A DNA stretch of 6,848 bases from an uncultured Lachnospiraceae bacterium (lineage in GTDB: Bacteria > Bacillota_A > Clostridia > Lachnospirales > Lachnospiraceae). Shown here one piece after another: positions 1,324 through 6,848 of this stretch (position 1 is the first letter of the stretch; every line of letters starts with the position of its first letter). Location: contig CAMOFS010000084.1 in the NCBI GenBank assembly GCA_946613735.1, positions 1-6,848 of the forward strand, written 5' to 3'. The notes beneath the pieces are model-generated. The model saw nothing but the letters and a program-made list of their open reading frames with translations, had not been told where the DNA came from and ran no database searches. A program made the translations under genes and the position numbers.

Positions 1324-4300
1324 ATGAACAAACGCACAGACATTAAAAAGGTTCTGATCATCGGTTCCGGCCCCATCGTCATCGGCCAGGCCTGCGAATT
1401 TGACTACAGCGGCACTCAGGCCTGCAAGGCATTGAAAAGCCTGGGCTACGAGATCGTCCTGGTCAATTCAAATCCTGCCACCATAATGACGGATCCTGAG
1501 ATGGCAGATGTCACCTACATAGAACCCCTTAACGTGGAGCGCGTGACAGCTATCATTAAAAAGGAACGTCCCGATGCCCTGCTTCCCAACCTGGGCGGTC
1601 AGAGCGGACTGAATCTCTGTGCGGAGCTATACAAAAAAGGCGTTTTGGAAGAGTATGGTGTGGAGGTCATCGGTGTCCAGGCCGACGCCATCGAGCGCGG
1701 CGAAGACCGGGTGGAGTTTAAAAAGACTATGGATATGCTCGGCATCGAGATGGCACGCTCAGAGGTGGCCTACTCAGTGGAGGACGCACTTAAGATAGCG
1801 GACGAGCTGGGTTATCCGGTGGTGCTACGTCCCGCCTATACCATGGGGGGAGCCGGTGGCGGACTTGTTTACAATTCCGATGAGCTGGCTACGGTCTGCG
1901 CCAGAGGACTAAAGGCTTCCCTGGTTCACCAGGTGCTGGTGGAGGAGAGTGTCATGGGCTGGGAGGAGCTGGAGCTTGAGGTGGTCCGGGATGCAGCCAA
2001 TAACATGATCACGGTCTGCTTCATAGAAAATGTGGATCCCATGGGAGTCCATACCGGTGACAGCTTTTGTACCGCACCCATGCTCACCATCGAGCAGTCG
2101 GTCATGGACCGTCTCCAGGAGCAGGCATATAAGATAGTTGAGCACATCGGTGTCATCGGCGGCACCAACGTACAGTTTGCACATGATCCCAAAACGGACA
2201 GGATCATAGTCATAGAGATCAATCCCAGGACTTCAAGATCATCAGCCCTGGCATCCAAAGCCACCGGCTTCCCTATCGCGCTGGTATCTGCCAAGCTTGC
2301 AGCGGGCCTTCTTTTATCCGACATCCCCTGCGGCAAATACGGTACCCTGGATAAGTACCATCCCGATGGCGACTACGTGGTGGTGAAGTTTGCCCGCTGG
2401 GCCTTTGAAAAGTTCAAGGGTGTGGAGGACAAGCTGGGCACCCAGATGCGTGCAGTAGGCGAGGTCATGTCCATAGGCAAGACCTACAAGGAGGCCTTCC
2501 AAAAGGCCATCCGGTCTCTGGAAAAGGGCCGCTTTGGCTTAGGACATGTTAAGGACTTTGATACTCTTGGCAAGGAGGAGCTGCTCCGTCGGCTTTATAC
2601 ACCTAATTCCGAGAGGCACTTTTTGATGTATGAGGCCATCAGGGCCGGAGCCACCAATGAGGAGATAAGGGAGCGCACCAACGTTAAGGAGTACTTTATA
2701 CAGCAGATGAGAGAGCTGGTGGAGGAAGAAGAGGAGCTTGTGAAAAACTACCGTGGATCTCTTCCGGCGGATGAGGCTCTCATTAAGGCGAAAAAGGACG
2801 GTTTTTCCGATAAGTACTTATCTGAGATCCTTGAGATCCCGGAGGAGGATATCAGAAACCGCCGCATAGCACTTGGGCTTTCCCAGTCATGGCAGGGAGT
2901 CCATGTCAGCGGCACCGAGGACGCGGCTTATTATTACTCCACCTATAATGATGTAGACAAAAACCCGGTGAACACTGACAAGAAAAAGGTGATGATCCTC
3001 GGCGGCGGTCCCAACCGTATCGGCCAGGGCATCGAGTTTGACTACTGCTGTGTACATGCGGCGCAGTCACTTAAGAAGCTGGGCTTTGAGACCATTATCG
3101 TAAACTGCAATCCCGAGACCGTGTCCACGGATTACGACACCTCGGACAAGCTTTATTTTGAACCGCTGACCTTAGAGGATGTTCTTTCCATCTATGAAAA
3201 GGAGCGCCCCGAGGGGGTTATTGCCCAGTTTGGCGGCCAGACACCTCTTAACCTGGCGGCTGACCTGCAAAAGTACGGAGTGAAGATCCTGGGTACCTCT
3301 CCCGAGGTCATTGACCTTGCGGAGGACAGGGACCGGTTCAGGGAGATGATGGATAAACTGGAGATTCCCATGCCCGAAAGCGGCATGGCGACCACTGTAG
3401 AGGAAGCCATCGACATAGCAGGCCGTATCGGCTATCCTGTTATGGTGCGTCCTTCCTACGTACTTGGTGGCAGAGGCATGGAGGTGGTCTATGATGATGA
3501 GGCCATGTCAGATTACATGCGGGCAGCTGTGGGAGTGACTCCGGATCGTCCTATTTTGATCGACCGCTTTTTGGTACATGCCATGGAGTGTGAGGCAGAT
3601 GCCATCTCCGACGGAGAGCACGCTTTTGTTCCCGCTGTCATGGAGCATATAGAGCTGGCTGGGATCCATTCCGGAGACTCGGCCTGCATCCTGCCATCGA
3701 AGCACATTCCCGAGAGTCAGCTTGAGACCATCAGGGAATACACCAGGAAGATCGCCGAGGAGATGCACGTGGTGGGACTGATGAACATGCAGTATGCCAT
3801 CGAAAACGGCACGGTATATGTGCTCGAGGCCAATCCCAGGGCATCCCGTACGGTGCCTCTGGTATCAAAGGTCTGTGGTATCAGGATGGTACCCATCGCA
3901 ACAGATGTTATCACAAGGGAACTGACAGGAAGAAAGAGTGTGGTTCCGGAGTTAAAGGAGAGAAAGATACCTTACTATGGAGTGAAGGAGGCGGTATTCC
4001 CCTTCTCCATGTTCCAGGAGGTGGATCCCATTTTGGGACCGGAGATGCGTTCTACCGGCGAGGTGCTGGGCATTTCATACTCTGCGGGTGAAGCTTTTTA
4101 CAAGGCCCAGGAGGCTGCAAACGGTGCGCTTCCGCTATCGGGTACTGTGCTGATCTCAGTCAATCGCAAGGACAAGCCTGAGGTGGTGGAGATCGCCCGG
4201 GCCTTCCATGACGATGGCTTTGATATCATGGCTACCGGTACCACCTATGAGCTTATATCACAGTCCGGCATCCCGGCACAGAAGGTGAAAAAGCTCTACG

Positions 4301-4545
4301 AGGGCCAGCCCAACATTTTGGACCATATGACCAATAAAAAGATCCAGCTTATCATAAATACGCCGGTGGGTAAGGACAGCGTGCATGATGACAGCTACTT
4401 AAGGAAGGCTGCCATCAAGCAGAAGATCCCCTACATCACTACCATTGCGGCGGCCCGGGCAGCCGCTGAAGGTATAGCTGTGCTGAAAGAACAGGGTAAC
4501 GGCAACATCCACAGCCTGCAGAAGTGGCATCAGAGGATAGAATAA
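1324..4545 (+). CDS. carB: Carbamoyl phosphate synthase, large (synthetase) subunit
   Basis: This protein makes carbamoyl phosphate from bicarbonate, two ATP and ammonia delivered by the small subunit CarA, feeding pyrimidine and arginine synthesis in the cytoplasm. At 1073 residues it equals the E. coli CarB length. By comparison with that enzyme the order is: carboxyphosphate ATP-grasp half (about 1-400), oligomerisation region (about 400-550), carbamoyl-phosphate ATP-grasp half (about 550-935) and C-terminal MGS-like allosteric domain (about 936-1073). Visible markers include GSGPIVIGQACEFDYSG near the start, R169 in LRPAYTMGGAGGG, E215, H243 in PMGVHTGDS, E298/N300 in EINPRTSRS, the second-half motif GGGPNRIGQGIEFDY from 560, EANPRASRTVPLVSK, and TGTTYELI plus NTPVGK in the regulatory domain. 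Both active halves look intact. The start follows AAAGGA (1312-1317) with six-base spacing. CarA is not adjacent. The gene probably shares a transcript with loaP, since no terminator separates them. Confidence 0.98.
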   Translation: MNKRTDIKKVLIIGSGPIVIGQACEFDYSGTQACKALKSLGYEIVLVNSNPATIMTDPEMADVTYIEPLNVERVTAIIKKERPDALLPNLGGQSGLNLCAELYKKGVLEEYGVEVIGVQADAIERGEDRVEFKKTMDMLGIEMARSEVAYSVEDALKIADELGYPVVLRPAYTMGGAGGGLVYNSDELATVCARGLKASLVHQVLVEESVMGWEELELEVVRDAANNMITVCFIENVDPMGVHTGDSFCTAPMLTIEQSVMDRLQEQAYKIVEHIGVIGGTNVQFAHDPKTDRIIVIEINPRTSRSSALASKATGFPIALVSAKLAAGLLLSDIPCGKYGTLDKYHPDGDYVVVKFARWAFEKFKGVEDKLGTQMRAVGEVMSIGKTYKEAFQKAIRSLEKGRFGLGHVKDFDTLGKEELLRRLYTPNSERHFLMYEAIRAGATNEEIRERTNVKEYFIQQMRELVEEEEELVKNYRGSLPADEALIKAKKDGFSDKYLSEILEIPEEDIRNRRIALGLSQSWQGVHVSGTEDAAYYYSTYNDVDKNPVNTDKKKVMILGGGPNRIGQGIEFDYCCVHAAQSLKKLGFETIIVNCNPETVSTDYDTSDKLYFEPLTLEDVLSIYEKERPEGVIAQFGGQTPLNLAADLQKYGVKILGTSPEVIDLAEDRDRFREMMDKLEIPMPESGMATTVEEAIDIAGRIGYPVMVRPSYVLGGRGMEVVYDDEAMSDYMRAAVGVTPDRPILIDRFLVHAMECEADAISDGEHAFVPAVMEHIELAGIHSGDSACILPSKHIPESQLETIREYTRKIAEEMHVVGLMNMQYAIENGTVYVLEANPRASRTVPLVSKVCGIRMVPIATDVITRELTGRKSVVPELKERKIPYYGVKEAVFPFSMFQEVDPILGPEMRSTGEVLGISYSAGEAFYKAQEAANGALPLSGTVLISVNRKDKPEVVEIARAFHDDGFDIMATGTTYELISQSGIPAQKVKKLYEGQPNILDHMTNKKIQLIINTPVGKDSVHDDSYLRKAAIKQKIPYITTIAAARAAAEGIAVLKEQGNGNIHSLQKWHQRIE

Positions 4546-4552
4546 CTACGCC

Positions 4553-4581
4553 TGTCATTCTGAGCGCAGCGAAGAATCTTA
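4553..4581 (+). repeat. Dispersed hairpin repeat, copy 1 (carB-loaP gap)
   Basis: The unit begins TGTCATTCTGAG and ends GAAGAATCTTA, matching the two copies after deoB. It can fold as ATTCTGAGC (4557-4565), loop GCA (4566-4568), GCGAAGAAT (4569-4577). That gives seven Watson-Crick pairs with a tandem G.A/A.G mismatch inside the stem and a GC-GNA-GC tip. It starts 8 bases after the carB stop, and its end lies 4 bases before the loaP ribosome binding site. I recall very similar sequences as intergenic repeats in many bacterial genomes, but could not check this here. No T-tract follows, so it is not a standard terminator. Confidence 0.85.
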
Positions 4582-4600
4582 CAAAAAGGAAATCCAATAC

Positions 4601-5158
4601 ATGATATATGTACTACAGGTTCGCTCCGGCAAAGAGTCCGAAGTCATAACCTTTATGAACGTTCTGGTGGATAAGAGTCTTTTCAACGACGCCTATTATC
4701 CCACCAGGAAGATGATGAAAAAATACCGTGGCAAATGGAACGAAGTCACAGAGAAACTGATCCCGGGCTACGTCTTTGTGGAGTCGGACGAGCCGGTGAA
4801 GCTATATATGCAACTGAAAAAAGTACCACGACTTACCAAGCTTTTGGGCCGGGATGTGGATCGTGACGAGATCCGCCGCCTGACTGAGCGTGATGAGAGA
4901 TGGCTGAGACAGATGATGGGCGGAAAAGAAGGCCAGTACATGGACCCCAAGCTTAGAGGCGAGGTGGGACTTACCCTGGTATCCATCGATGATGATGGCG
5001 TGGTCCATATCTTAGAGGGCCCCTTAAAGGGTGTCGAGGGTCACATCATAAAATATAACCTGCACAAGCGTTTTGCCGCAGTGGAGACAGAGTTCATGGG
5101 TCAAAAGACCGTCCTTCACATGGGTATCGTTATAGCGGAAAAACGTGAGGAGGACTGA
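4601..5158 (+). CDS. loaP: LoaP-type antiterminator (specialised NusG paralogue)
   Basis: This 185-residue protein has the two-domain plan of NusG-family elongation factors. The NGN domain occupies about residues 1-105 (MIYVLQVRSGKE at the start, LIPGYVFVE at 53-61, then VPRLTKLLG). A KOW domain spans about 137-165 (EGPLKGVEGHIIKYNLHKRFAAVE). The tyrosine in the opening motif, the GYVFVE strand and the KRFAAVE end of the KOW region fit the LoaP subfamily better than housekeeping NusG. Characterised LoaP proteins bind RNA polymerase and a small RNA hairpin and suppress termination across long polysaccharide or secondary-metabolite operons. Here the flanking genes are carB and rpsU, and no such operon is visible, so the target is unknown. 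The ATG matches the family N-terminus. AAGGA at 4586-4590 precedes it by a rather long ten bases. No promoter is seen in the 55-base gap, so read-through from carB is likely. Confidence 0.85.
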   Translation: MIYVLQVRSGKESEVITFMNVLVDKSLFNDAYYPTRKMMKKYRGKWNEVTEKLIPGYVFVESDEPVKLYMQLKKVPRLTKLLGRDVDRDEIRRLTERDERWLRQMMGGKEGQYMDPKLRGEVGLTLVSIDDDGVVHILEGPLKGVEGHIIKYNLHKRFAAVETEFMGQKTVLHMGIVIAEKREED

Positions 5159-5208
5159 TGATGTGATCCACCTGCCACAGTCCGGTGATATACAAAAATA
5201 CAAATATC

Positions 5209-5237
5209 TTGACAAATAGGATAAATGCTAGTAAAAT
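5209..5237 (+). promoter_or_regulatory. Housekeeping sigma promoter of rpsU
   Basis: A perfect TTGACA at 5209-5214 is followed by a 17-base spacer and TAAAAT at 5232-5237, one base from the consensus TATAAT. The expected transcription start is about 5243-5245, leaving a leader of roughly 63 bases before the rpsU ATG. This is the only near-consensus promoter I found in the window, in keeping with the heavy expression of a ribosomal protein gene. It separates rpsU from the upstream loaP unit. Confidence 0.85.
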
Positions 5238-5244
5238 GTCAAAT

Positions 5245-5298
5245 GGTGTCCACGTTGACGCCCAATAAGGTAATCGCCAGATTATCTCCGGAAGGAGG
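5245..5298 (+). promoter_or_regulatory. Structured leader of rpsU with three small hairpins, the last covering the Shine-Dalgarno
   Basis: Three consecutive inverted repeats fill the predicted leader. GGTGTC (5245-5250) pairs with GACGCC (5257-5262) right at the expected transcript 5' end. GGTAATC (5269-5275) pairs with GATTATC (5280-5286) around a GCCA loop. CTCC (5286-5289) pairs with GGAG (5294-5297) around GGAA, a GNRA-type tetraloop, with a possible extra U.G pair. The last hairpin would hold part of the AAGGAGGG ribosome binding site (5292-5299), and it shares base 5286 with the second. The pairings are visible, but regulation through them is inference. The third stem is short and may be melted in vivo. 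Confidence 0.45.
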
Positions 5299-5307
5299 GT
5301 AGTATAT

Positions 5308-5484
5308 ATGTCAAGTGTTATTGTTAAGGAAAACGAGTCTTTAGACAGCGCACTTCGCCGCTTCAAGAGAAATTGTGCTAAGGCCGGTATCCAGCAGGAG
5401 ATCCGTAAGCGTGAGCATTATGAGAAGCCCAGCGTTAAGCGCAAGAAAAAGTCTGAGGCAGCCAGAAAACGCAAATATAACTAA
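5308..5484 (+). CDS. rpsU: Small ribosomal subunit protein bS21
   Basis: This short gene encodes 58 residues starting [20 protein letters not shown]. Then come [24 protein letters not shown] and a very basic end ([15 protein letters not shown]). This is the classic S21 pattern: a small N-terminal segment, the RRFKR and [10 protein letters not shown] helices, and a lysine/arginine-rich tail that contacts 16S rRNA. S21 sits on the 30S platform near the anti-Shine-Dalgarno and helps translation initiation (family knowledge). The length is normal for the family. The ATG follows a strong AAGGAGGG with eight-base spacing. The gene has its own near-consensus promoter and its own terminator, so it is essentially a single-gene unit here. 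The more familiar partner yqeY is not next to it. Confidence 0.96.
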
Positions 5485-5492
5485 GCGCATTT

Positions 5493-5530
5493 AAGGATGC
5501 TCCAAAAATATGGAGCATCCTTTTTGTTTT
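5493..5530 (+). terminator. Intrinsic terminator after rpsU
   Basis: A perfect 12-bp stem (AAGGATGCTCCA at 5493-5504 with TGGAGCATCCTT at 5511-5522) encloses the loop AAAATA and runs into a T-rich tract ending at 5530. It should end rpsU transcripts efficiently. The deoB ribosome binding site starts only one base after the T-rich tract, so deoB expression must come from read-through or from a start site at or before the terminator. Confidence 0.93.
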
Positions 5531-5543
5531 CAGGAGGGTTATT

Positions 5544-6665
5544 TTGAAAAAAAGAGCGATTTTAATAGTTTTGGACAGTGCGGGTATAGGACATGCGCCT
5601 GATGCTGCTGAGTACGGCGATGAGGGAGCCAACACTTTTTTATCCTGTTCGAAAAGTGAAAGATTCAATACCCCAAATATGAAAAAAATGGGGCTTTATA
5701 ATATCGACGACGTTGAGATAGAGGGATGTGATGCACCTACAGGTGCCTTTGCCAGACTTATCGAAAAGTCCAAGGGCAAGGACACTACCACGGGACACTG
5801 GGAGATGGCAGGAGTGGTAAGCGAGCAGCCTTTCCCCACTTACCCCAATGGTTTTCCGGATGAGGTACTGGACGAGTTCAAAAGGCTTACCGGAAGAGAG
5901 GTGCTCTGTAACCTTCCTTATTCCGGCACCCAGGTCATAGAGGACTACGGCGAAGAGCATATTAAGACCGGTGCACTTATCGTATATACCAGTGCCGATT
6001 CCGTGTTCCAGATAGCAGCACATGAGGATATAGTTCCGGTGGAGACTCTGTATGAGTACTGCCGTATTGCCAGAAAGATGCTTGTGGGCAGGCACGGTGT
6101 GGGCAGAGTTATCGCCCGTCCTTTTATCGGGCAGCCCGGCAGCTTTACCCGTACCACCAGAAGGCACGACTTTTCATTGGAGCCTACGGGGGAGACTATG
6201 ATGGATACATTAAAGGCCAAGGGCTATGATGTGCTATCCGTAGGCAAGATATATGATATTTTTGCAGAGCGTGGAGTGACGGACTATGTGAGATGCGAGG
6301 GCAATCCCGATGGCATCGAAAAGACTATCAAGTGGATGGAACGTGACTTTAACGGTCTTATGTTTGTAAATCTGGTGGACACCGATATGATCTACGGTCA
6401 TCGCCGCGACATCGACGGCTATGCCGGAGCACTCAGCTACTTTGACGAGCAGCTGCCCCGCATTACGGAGCGCATGGGGGATGAGGACATCCTTCTTATT
6501 ACGGCAGACCATGGCTGTGATCCGGGATATACCGGCACAGACCATACCAGGGAGTGCGTGCCTCTCCTTATGTACGGCAAGTCCATTCCCGCCGGCAAGA
6601 ACTACGGCACCATAACAGGATTTGATTTTATTGCAAAATATATACTGGAGTATTTTGGAGTATAG
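5544..6665 (+). CDS. deoB: Phosphopentomutase
   Basis: DeoB interconverts ribose-1-phosphate (or deoxyribose-1-phosphate) and the 5-phosphate form, linking nucleoside breakdown to central carbon metabolism in the cytoplasm. The 373-residue product belongs to the alkaline phosphatase superfamily. D11 in VLDSAGIG, T83 in GKDTTTGHWEMAG, D281 and H286 in DTDMIYGHRRD, and D322, H323 and H334 in ADHGCDPGYTGTDH match the phosphorylated threonine and two-metal ligands known for the Bacillus cereus enzyme. Their spacing is constant apart from small length differences. The cap domain shows RVIARPFIGQPGSFTRTTRRHDFS. The protein is slightly shorter than the roughly 390-residue norm. The start is TTG, chosen because it gives the family N-terminus (MKKRAILIVLDSAG) and lies five bases after AGGAGGG at 5532-5538. 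No other deo or pnp gene is adjacent. No standard terminator follows, only the inverted repeat pair. Confidence 0.96.
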   Translation: MKKRAILIVLDSAGIGHAPDAAEYGDEGANTFLSCSKSERFNTPNMKKMGLYNIDDVEIEGCDAPTGAFARLIEKSKGKDTTTGHWEMAGVVSEQPFPTYPNGFPDEVLDEFKRLTGREVLCNLPYSGTQVIEDYGEEHIKTGALIVYTSADSVFQIAAHEDIVPVETLYEYCRIARKMLVGRHGVGRVIARPFIGQPGSFTRTTRRHDFSLEPTGETMMDTLKAKGYDVLSVGKIYDIFAERGVTDYVRCEGNPDGIEKTIKWMERDFNGLMFVNLVDTDMIYGHRRDIDGYAGALSYFDEQLPRITERMGDEDILLITADHGCDPGYTGTDHTRECVPLLMYGKSIPAGKNYGTITGFDFIAKYILEYFGV

Positions 6666-6691
6666 GATCCTTCGCTTCGCTCAGGATGACA
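6665..6691 (-). repeat. Dispersed hairpin repeat, copy 2 (inverted, after deoB)
   Basis: Read on the minus strand, this unit starts TGTCATCCTGAGCGAAGCG and ends AAGGATCC. It is copy 1 with T-to-C and A-to-G changes. The hairpin is ATCCTGAGC, loop GAA, GCGAAGGAT (plus-strand 6667-6687). The stem changes are compensatory relative to copy 1: a T-A pair has become C-G. It begins on the last base of the deoB stop codon. Confidence 0.85.
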
Positions 6692-6720
6692 GAGAAGCAC
6701 GCTTATGGTGAAGTCACCGT

Positions 6721-6755
6721 TGTCATTCTGAGGAGCGAAGCGACGAAGAATCTTA
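6721..6755 (+). repeat. Dispersed hairpin repeat, copy 3 (expanded form)
   Basis: This copy has the TGTCATTCTGAG head and GAAGAATCTTA tail of copy 1 but carries three extra bases in each arm. Its arms are ATTCTGAGGAGC (6725-6736) and GCGACGAAGAAT (6740-6751) around a GAA loop. The insertions lengthen the stem by one more tandem G.A motif and one G-C pair instead of breaking it. The unit ends six bases before the AAGGA site of the next gene. Confidence 0.85.
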
Positions 6756-6774
6756 CCACTTAAGGAAATACGAC

Positions 6775-6848
6775 ATGAAGATGATAAAACATATTTTTTT
6801 TACAGATCAGAAAAACCTCTGGAAGAATCCTTTCTGCCTGGTGATAGT
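6775..6848 (+). CDS. N-terminus of a probable YhgE/Pip-family membrane protein (3' end outside window)
   Basis: Only 24 complete codons are present, from MKMIKHIFFTDQKN to LWKNPFCLVI. The pattern is a short basic amphipathic start, then a D-x-K-N-x-x-K-N-P turn leading into a hydrophobic segment. It resembles the opening of YhgE/Pip (ABC-2-like) proteins, where a transmembrane helix follows a lysine-asparagine-proline turn. Members of this family include a lactococcal phage-infection protein and parts of type VII secretion systems. The ATG at 6775 has AAGGA (6762-6766) eight bases upstream; the ATG at 6781 is possible but less well spaced. The fragment is too short for a firm call, and other membrane proteins could begin like this. 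Confidence 0.45.
   Translation, partial: MKMIKHIFFTDQKNLWKNPFCLVI

Follow-up and report, generated by a model that had tools for sequence, protein, structure and literature searches.

Hairpin elements in the window

The window, that is, the entire stretch of 6,848 bp from an uncultured Lachnospiraceae bacterium that was analysed, reads as a section of a Lachnospiraceae genome, with a nucleotidyltransferase that we take to be glgD-like, carB, a nusG-like gene, rpsU and a gene that is presumably deoB (the other gene names are likewise in part our assumption). Three copies of a small hairpin-forming repeat are found among these genes. Copy 1 (4553..4580, plus strand) lies between the carB-like gene for the carbamoyl-phosphate synthase large subunit (1324..4545, plus strand; PF25596, PF02786, PF02787) upstream and the NusG-like gene (4601..5158, plus strand; PF02357, E=7.2e-11) downstream. 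It reads TGTC-ATTCT-GA-GC-GCA-GC-GA-AGAAT-CTT, and was recognised by direct reading and by a match to a degenerate pattern. With boundaries taken from 153 copies elsewhere and here, it consists of a tag (TGTC, 4553-4556), a 21-nt hairpin (4557-4577) and a tail (CTT, 4578-4580).

Copy 2 (6664..6691, minus strand), directly read as TGTC-ATCCT-GA-GC-GAA-GC-GA-AGGAT-CCT, adjoins the 3' end of the deoB-like gene (5544..6665, plus strand; PF01676, E=1.3e-33), whose stop codon (6663-6665) is overlapped by the 3' tail of the repeat. A spacer (6692..6720) separates it from copy 3 (6721..6754, plus strand), which by direct reading is TGTC-ATTCT-GA-G-GA-GC-GAA-GC-GA-C-GA-AGAAT-CTT. Copies 2 and 3 stand head-to-head, their TGTC tags facing each other. 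Compared with the base form, copy 3 has a second tandem G.A and one additional G-C pair (the "+3/+3" form), and 87 copies of the same class are present in three other genomes, G059, G478 and G001.

The first-pass annotation of this DNA had described three differing copies with a common fold, and reading of the sequences bears this out, including for the copy on the minus strand. The outer stem indeed changes from ATTCT/AGAAT to ATCCT/AGGAT (T:A to C:G), all three copies possess the tandem G.A and a GNA tip, and the insert of three bases in each arm of copy 3 is in register. With a tolerance of 3 mismatches, the degenerate pattern finds copies 1 and 2, and none of 200 shuffles gave two matches. 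The three window copies are nevertheless little proof by themselves; the support comes from the copies in relatives. Folding energies of single copies are unremarkable against shuffles under nearest-neighbour parameters (z -0.5 to +1.6 for DNA, -1.2 to +0.3 for RNA), the minimum-energy fold of copy 3 under DNA parameters differs from the proposed hairpin, and the head-to-head pair can fold instead as one large hairpin (z -3.9). Two intrinsic terminators were predicted in 4400-6848, neither of them at a copy, and the sole Rfam match was weak, elsewhere in the window and below its gathering score; a terminator and a known RNA family were rejected as identities of the repeat.

The nearest relatives found for the window are two uncultured Lachnospiraceae, G001 (contig L001, deoB-like protein 93% identical) and the copy-free G002 (L002, 85%); G732 is also near, with a carB region about 84% identical at the DNA level. 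At the orthologous site in L001, copy 2 is identical in 28 of 28 letters, between flanks of 81% and 85% identity. Copy 3 is absent there, and a GAGAATCTT stretch found downstream of copy 2 is perhaps the remnant of a copy.

The repeat unit

The family unit is about 31 nt long and consists of an unpaired TGTC tag, a hairpin with a tandem G.A break in its stem, and a C(T) tail. Among 153 copies with a complementary third stem pair, in which the tag and tail positions were left free, the tag letters G, T and C are kept at 149, 152 and 150 copies, the first C of the tail at 151 and the following T at 122, and positions beyond tag and tail are near random. The tags are TGTC (122), AGTC (12), CGTC (8), GGTC (4) and others (7), none of the 153 being GTAG or GTGG; the tails are CTT (87), CTA (20), CCC (16), CTC (13), CCT (10), CCA (3) and others (4). 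In the 153 copies used for the test of the third stem pair (see below), the first stem pair is A-T in 146 and the second is T-A in 142. Nine paired positions are reached only if both G.A are counted, and the loop measures 3 nt in the commonest classes and 4 in some. Tips are most often GNA and in some classes GNNA, the commonest being GCGAAGC, and other classes have four-base tips such as GTTA, GAAA or GATA. The conserved unpaired tag, the C(T) tail, the head-to-head arrangement and the existence of several length classes are additions to the earlier description of the repeat.

Conservation of the fold

With search anchors that leave it free, the third pair of the outer stem proved to be Watson-Crick in 138 out of 153 copies; when the 3' letters were redistributed in 2000 shuffles, the average was 71 and the highest count 94. 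All four Watson-Crick pair types occur, and the 15 failures include two T-G. By genome, the counts are 53/57, 58/63, 30/34, 50/56 and 10/11 (in the last set the largest shuffle also reached 10); G732 and G704 are new in this comparison and the other three genomes overlap the 153-copy set. Pair 3 alone varies enough for such a test, as the remaining outer pairs are near invariant and little informative, and variants that break other stem pairs exist, e.g., ATCCA...AGGAT in contig L240. The tandem place, likewise left free in the search, is GA/GA in 154 of 162 copies.

The tip of the hairpin displays the same behaviour. All 87 matches of CTGAGGA-N7-GACGAAG (48 in G059, 30 in G478, 9 in G001) make up the +3/+3 set, in which the first tip pair is Watson-Crick in 77 copies (largest of 5000 shuffles, 59) and the second in 84 (largest, 74). 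Reduced to 30 distinct tips, the pairs are Watson-Crick in 22 and 27; of 5000 shuffles, 9 attain the first value and none the second. The tip pairs exchange among GC/GC, AC/GT and GT/AC while both G.A tandems are retained, both being fixed here by the search pattern and the lower one left free in the separate count of 162 copies. The loops of the 87 copies are GNA in 57 and ANA in 23. In alignment A1, 98% of the cells pair (equalled in 0 of 500 shuffles), compared with 25-59% when the partner is slid; pair changes on both sides (equalled by 247 of 500 shuffles) and the number of further pair types (489 of 500) do not discriminate.

It had been proposed that the fold is preserved by compensatory and modular changes. 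The excess of complementary third pairs and tip pairs over the shuffles agrees with the former: those pairs that vary do so together, the tandem G.A hardly ever changes, and copies did not prove to vary without regard to the pairing of their arms. As to the latter, length classes differing by the +3/+3 insert recur in the 87 copies of three genomes, and an insert of three bases on one side only, in either arm, was seen 0 times in 877 kb, where 61 base and 17 +3/+3 copies occur. The +3/+3 form is one among several length classes, some of which add Watson-Crick pairs (GGGC-NNN-GCCC); one class adds a GA tandem with one surplus base on a single arm (GCGAGC-GNA-GCGAGTC).

Distribution, placement and turnover

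The repeat reaches high numbers in single genomes, with 265 copies in G732, 233 in G704, 209 in G059, 126 in G001 and 83 in G478, and a reversed-pattern control gave no match in these five. Its occurrence is patchy: of 299 Lachnospiraceae genomes, 8 contain the pattern TCATNCTGAGN{3,16}CGAAGNATC, as do 28 of 398 genomes in the Bacillota sample (the samples overlap, G001 and G187 being counted in both), and the reversed control in the Lachnospiraceae survey had a single match, in G243. Outside Bacillota, copies were read at the sequence level on plasmids of Planktothrix, Calothrix and Phocaeicola, and a match in Granulicella came from BLAST only and was not recovered by the sequence-pattern script.

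Of 246 copies in five genomes, 22 lie at the edges of stretches; 208 of the other 224 are outside open reading frames or within 60 nt of the end of one, with frames crudely called and covering 86-94% of the DNA. Close pairs are head-to-head in 16 of 22 cases in G001, 14 of 18 in G732 and 2 of 2 in G478, and in 3 of 9 in G059 and 4 of 14 in G704; pooled, this is 30 of 40 for G001 and G732 versus 7 of 23 for G059 and G704. One copy of G001 (L166:13146-13173) directly follows the T-run of a terminator-like hairpin, and contig L327, of another species, has a similar terminator without a copy. In contigs L195:10390-10962, L184:451-1224 and L209:293-652 the repeat translates to peptides of the VILSEAKN, CHSERSEES and CHPERSEGS type, probably within gene predictions that are spurious or erroneously long.

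Presence of the repeat at a given site differs between related species. Counting degenerate copies as shared, both genomes have a copy at 7 of 13 alignable sites from G001 to G732 (7 of 14 in reverse) and at 1 of 8 from G059 to G704 (1 of 10 in reverse); among the six G001 sites scored as absent in G732, a degraded copy is discernible by eye in at least one (L175:5862). No change has occurred at some shared sites, such as that of one head-to-head pair that is identical in G001 and G732 between flanks of 85% and 87% identity, and at other shared sites the copies differ in class.

Viral sequences likewise contain the element. The exact 24-mer was found in 33 viral-contig stretches, 67 phage records match the 249 bases at the end of the window at an E-value limit of 10, and a human faecal phage record matches copy 3 (query 122-154, 91%, E=0.02). 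Phages may be carriers of the repeat between hosts. Related reading frames, some phage-like by eye, are situated near the repeat in viral contigs L181, L188, L197, L201, L202 and L210.

Unit of dispersal

Almost no flanking sequence is common to the copies in G001: of 62 copies, only 3, which all lie in a single contig, have 120-base flanks in common with a distant copy, and in G222 this holds for 0 of 12. The bare tagged hairpin consequently seems to be what multiplied in G001. A fixed dimer was rejected as the unit, since flanks and spacers in G001 are not common to the copies, that one contig excepted.

In some genomes hairpins are nonetheless found within miniature inverted-repeat transposable elements (MITEs). 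By pattern, G443 has five complete units of 153 bp with GAGACNNCTGAAAAAGT ends (contigs L232, L233 and L273), and each of the three that were read holds a tail-to-tail hairpin pair; G593 (L277-L279) has the same ends with different hairpins inside. A second type of unit in G443, with GTTTTGCATAAT-like ends, occurs in two copies. In G059, three units enclose a tail-to-tail pair of hairpins between inverted, ACTAAAACTTCCCAC-like termini (L148:3600-3860, L153:1-250, L154:9640-9900), one of which may have a 5-bp target duplication, CATTT. The ends of these MITE types are unrelated. These units would be expected if the family spread as cargo of MITEs, with DDE transposases acting on the terminal inverted repeats, and terminal repeats around a fixed unit do exist for some copies in G443, G593 and G059. 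In G001, the kin of the window, however, the GAGACNNCTGAAAAAGT end pattern does not occur and shared flanks are confined to the three copies noted above, and none of the 12 copies in G222 has them; cargo transport accounts for a minority of the copies read and fails for those read in G001. We regard it as a very improbable explanation for the family as a whole, and MITE carriage as a secondary route in some genomes.

Another repeat with hairpins, a distinct element of the form TCATCCTGAG...CCGAAGGATCTAGCCCACAAGGGCG with a second small hairpin downstream, was observed in L228:5770-7300 and in L229 (G404) and L230 (G365); in L228 it recurs at a spacing of about 330-430 bases in a single orientation.

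DNA or RNA

Because the G.A mismatches occur on one strand only, and the opposite strand carries T.C, a single strand is probably the target of selection. This strand could be RNA, if the hairpin acts in transcripts (in 3' end protection, attenuation or processing) and the compensatory changes reflect selection on RNA. Among 85 singletons between codirectional genes, the G.A strand coincides with the coding strand in 57 (57:28), the bias among all codirectional copies is 27:11 in G059 and 25:11 in G704, and copies lie at a median of 27-42 nt past the upstream stop codon in G001, G059, G222 and G478. The advantage of the G.A strand over the other in folding energy is also larger with RNA parameters (1.5-2.3 kcal/mol) than with DNA parameters (0.2-0.8 kcal/mol). 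On the other hand, the codirectional copies of G001 (21:17), G732 (27:22) and G478 (3:4) use the two strands almost equally, the close pairs are mostly inverted, and longer median distances apply to G443 (62), G454 (359) and G404/G365 (616). The window copies have neither a terminator-like site nor an Rfam match, and a mobile repeat is better suited to the patchy presence (8 of 299 Lachnospiraceae) and to the turnover.

We also note that the 57:28 bias, which would suit RNA, would equally suit recognition on the lagging-strand template wherever genes are transcribed in the direction of replication. IS200/IS605 enzymes act on that template, according to the available text of PMC6006769. The patchy distribution of the repeat, its turnover and its constant tag speak for DNA rather than RNA, and we consider an RNA element unlikely.

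Comparison with known elements

REPINs and BIMEs are inverted pairs of hairpins. Inverted pairs likewise occur here, but the pair is no fixed unit in G001, where 3 of 62 copies share spacers and flanks. The mini-hairpin used for stabilising DNA aptamers is, we assume, the GCGAAGC hairpin. The string of this d(GCGAAGC) DNA mini-hairpin is the same as the commonest tip of the present family, in which it sits atop a natural, repeated genomic element. In the accessible part of PMC4686876 a mini-hairpin stabilises DNA aptamers, and GCGAAGC is contained in the text.

A close resemblance exists to the CGTC-tagged REPs of Di Nocera 2013 (PMC3733652), of which the available excerpts describe the same unpaired CGTC/TGTC tag, the same first stem pairs (A-T, T-A), a similarly short unpaired tail, mainly intergenic sites and no transposase gene beside the copies. 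They are often head-to-head, as are those in G001, G732 and G478, and unlike those in G059 and G704. The same excerpts give a stem of 8-9 bp with a loop of 4-5 nt, whereas here 5 bp, a tandem G.A and 2 bp are topped mostly by a triloop; their tail is mostly CCA and here mostly CTT (CCA in 3 of 153). The phyla that they name do not include Bacillota, in which the present family occurs. The family is likely near the CGTC/TGTC REPs, as a tandem-G.A variant that was not encountered in the texts consulted and may yet match their consensus, in a comparison made by description only, and likely belongs to the CGTC superfamily, although not every feature agrees. In a text search of largely non-subscription literature, a piece of 11 letters was found in 24 papers and one of 12 letters in 3, all unrelated by title, longer pieces and translated peptides had no match, and a single paper employs the terms for CGTC repeats.

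GTAG-REPs of E. coli, served by a group 2 TnpA-REP/RAYT, likewise have a tetranucleotide at the 5' foot, a conserved stem mismatch and inverted pairs in the text available from PMC8266576 and PMC6006769. Both are built, in the same order, from a tag, a lower stem, a mismatch of two bases, an upper stem and a loop, and, in the passages at hand, E. coli TnpA-REP requires the GTAG tag and the mid-stem mismatch and is strand-specific (PMC8266576). The tag here is TGTC, and the mismatch is a G.A tandem instead of the AA-GC described there (PMC8266576, PMC6006769).

This layout, in agreement with tag, mismatched stem and CT, invites the explanation that a RAYT (Y1 TnpA-REP) mobilises the family, and that its gene either escaped assemblies that are incomplete or worked in trans before being lost. 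A search with the profile PF01797 covered copy-rich, copy-poor and copy-free genomes, and open frames of at least 200 aa with E above 1e-30 were defined as RAYT-like. In the Bacillota sample, RAYT-like genes are present in 15 of 26 copy-bearing versus 11 of 52 other genomes (p=0.002, kinship ignored), counted among the matches listed and with G453, G550 and G604, whose weak matches fell outside that list, scored as without. There is no such association in the Lachnospiraceae sample (1 of 7 copy-bearing versus 8 of 40 others), and none of the five copy-rich, possibly incomplete genomes has a RAYT-like gene by PF01797. G732, G001 and G478 gave no match at all, in assemblies that may be incomplete; G704 has one match, IS200-like (180 aa, E=5.7e-38), and G059 two partial ones, IS200-like by eye, in open frames of 65 aa and 77 aa, of which one lies at the end of a contig.

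No family copy was seen in 20 stretches around 24 Y1 matches of copy-bearing genomes (4 of these matches have less than 1 kb of DNA on one side), and the REPtron layout, with copies flanking the RAYT gene, is accordingly absent from them. Three matches of a lenient finder (two in L242, one in L258) lack the letters of the family and were set aside as chance, and the Y1 gene in G593 is flanked by inverted repeats of its own. Among 1160 open reading frames, 28 are flanked by copies on both sides, with no recurrent gene family among them (one is resolvase-like by eye). An association with transposases was hence found neither for Y1 genes in the 20 stretches nor for the 28 copy-flanked frames, and some copies reside in MITEs. 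The CGTC repeats, too, are without transposase association in the excerpts of Di Nocera 2013 (PMC3733652). Mobilisation by a RAYT appears improbable to us. The first-pass annotation had suggested selection on a single-stranded hairpin, as for REP elements recognised by such enzymes; the selection on a single strand and the REP-like layout are supported, and the link to RAYT/Y1 is not.

Interpretation

Selection on a single-stranded hairpin is supported by the covariation, the near-invariant G.A tandem and the layout of tag, hairpin and tail. At the level of sequence, the copies exhibit structure-preserving change, sharp boundaries, mainly intergenic sites, differences in presence between species and, in G001, few shared flanks. 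We consider it fairly probable that the family is a non-autonomous repeat of REP-like kind, maintained and dispersed in the form of a folded single strand, and that its enzyme is no RAYT detected by PF01797 in these genomes. The bare hairpin would be the multiplying unit in G001, and recognition would take place on the folded single-stranded DNA of the G.A strand. The reader would probably be a strand-specific nuclease or transferase that senses tag and hairpin, as TnpA-REP does with GTAG-REPs. No cognate enzyme was found by PF01797 or among copy-flanked genes of the copy-rich genomes searched; it may be of another HUH type or of an unknown kind, and may act in trans or be already lost.

The family works like a REP, and between related species whose genomes yielded no RAYT its copies are not the same. 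The mode of spread of CGTC repeats is left open in the available text of Di Nocera 2013 (PMC3733652). More tentatively, the repeats might represent a RAYT-independent, cross-phylum class of single-strand hairpins, read by structure (tag and stackable sheared G.A modules), whose amplification into the hundreds would be the work of an enzyme family so far without a link to REPs. With its natural variants, i.e., pair swaps, GNA and GNNA tips and stacked G.A modules, the family lends itself to direct tests both of the recognition rule and of the missing enzyme.
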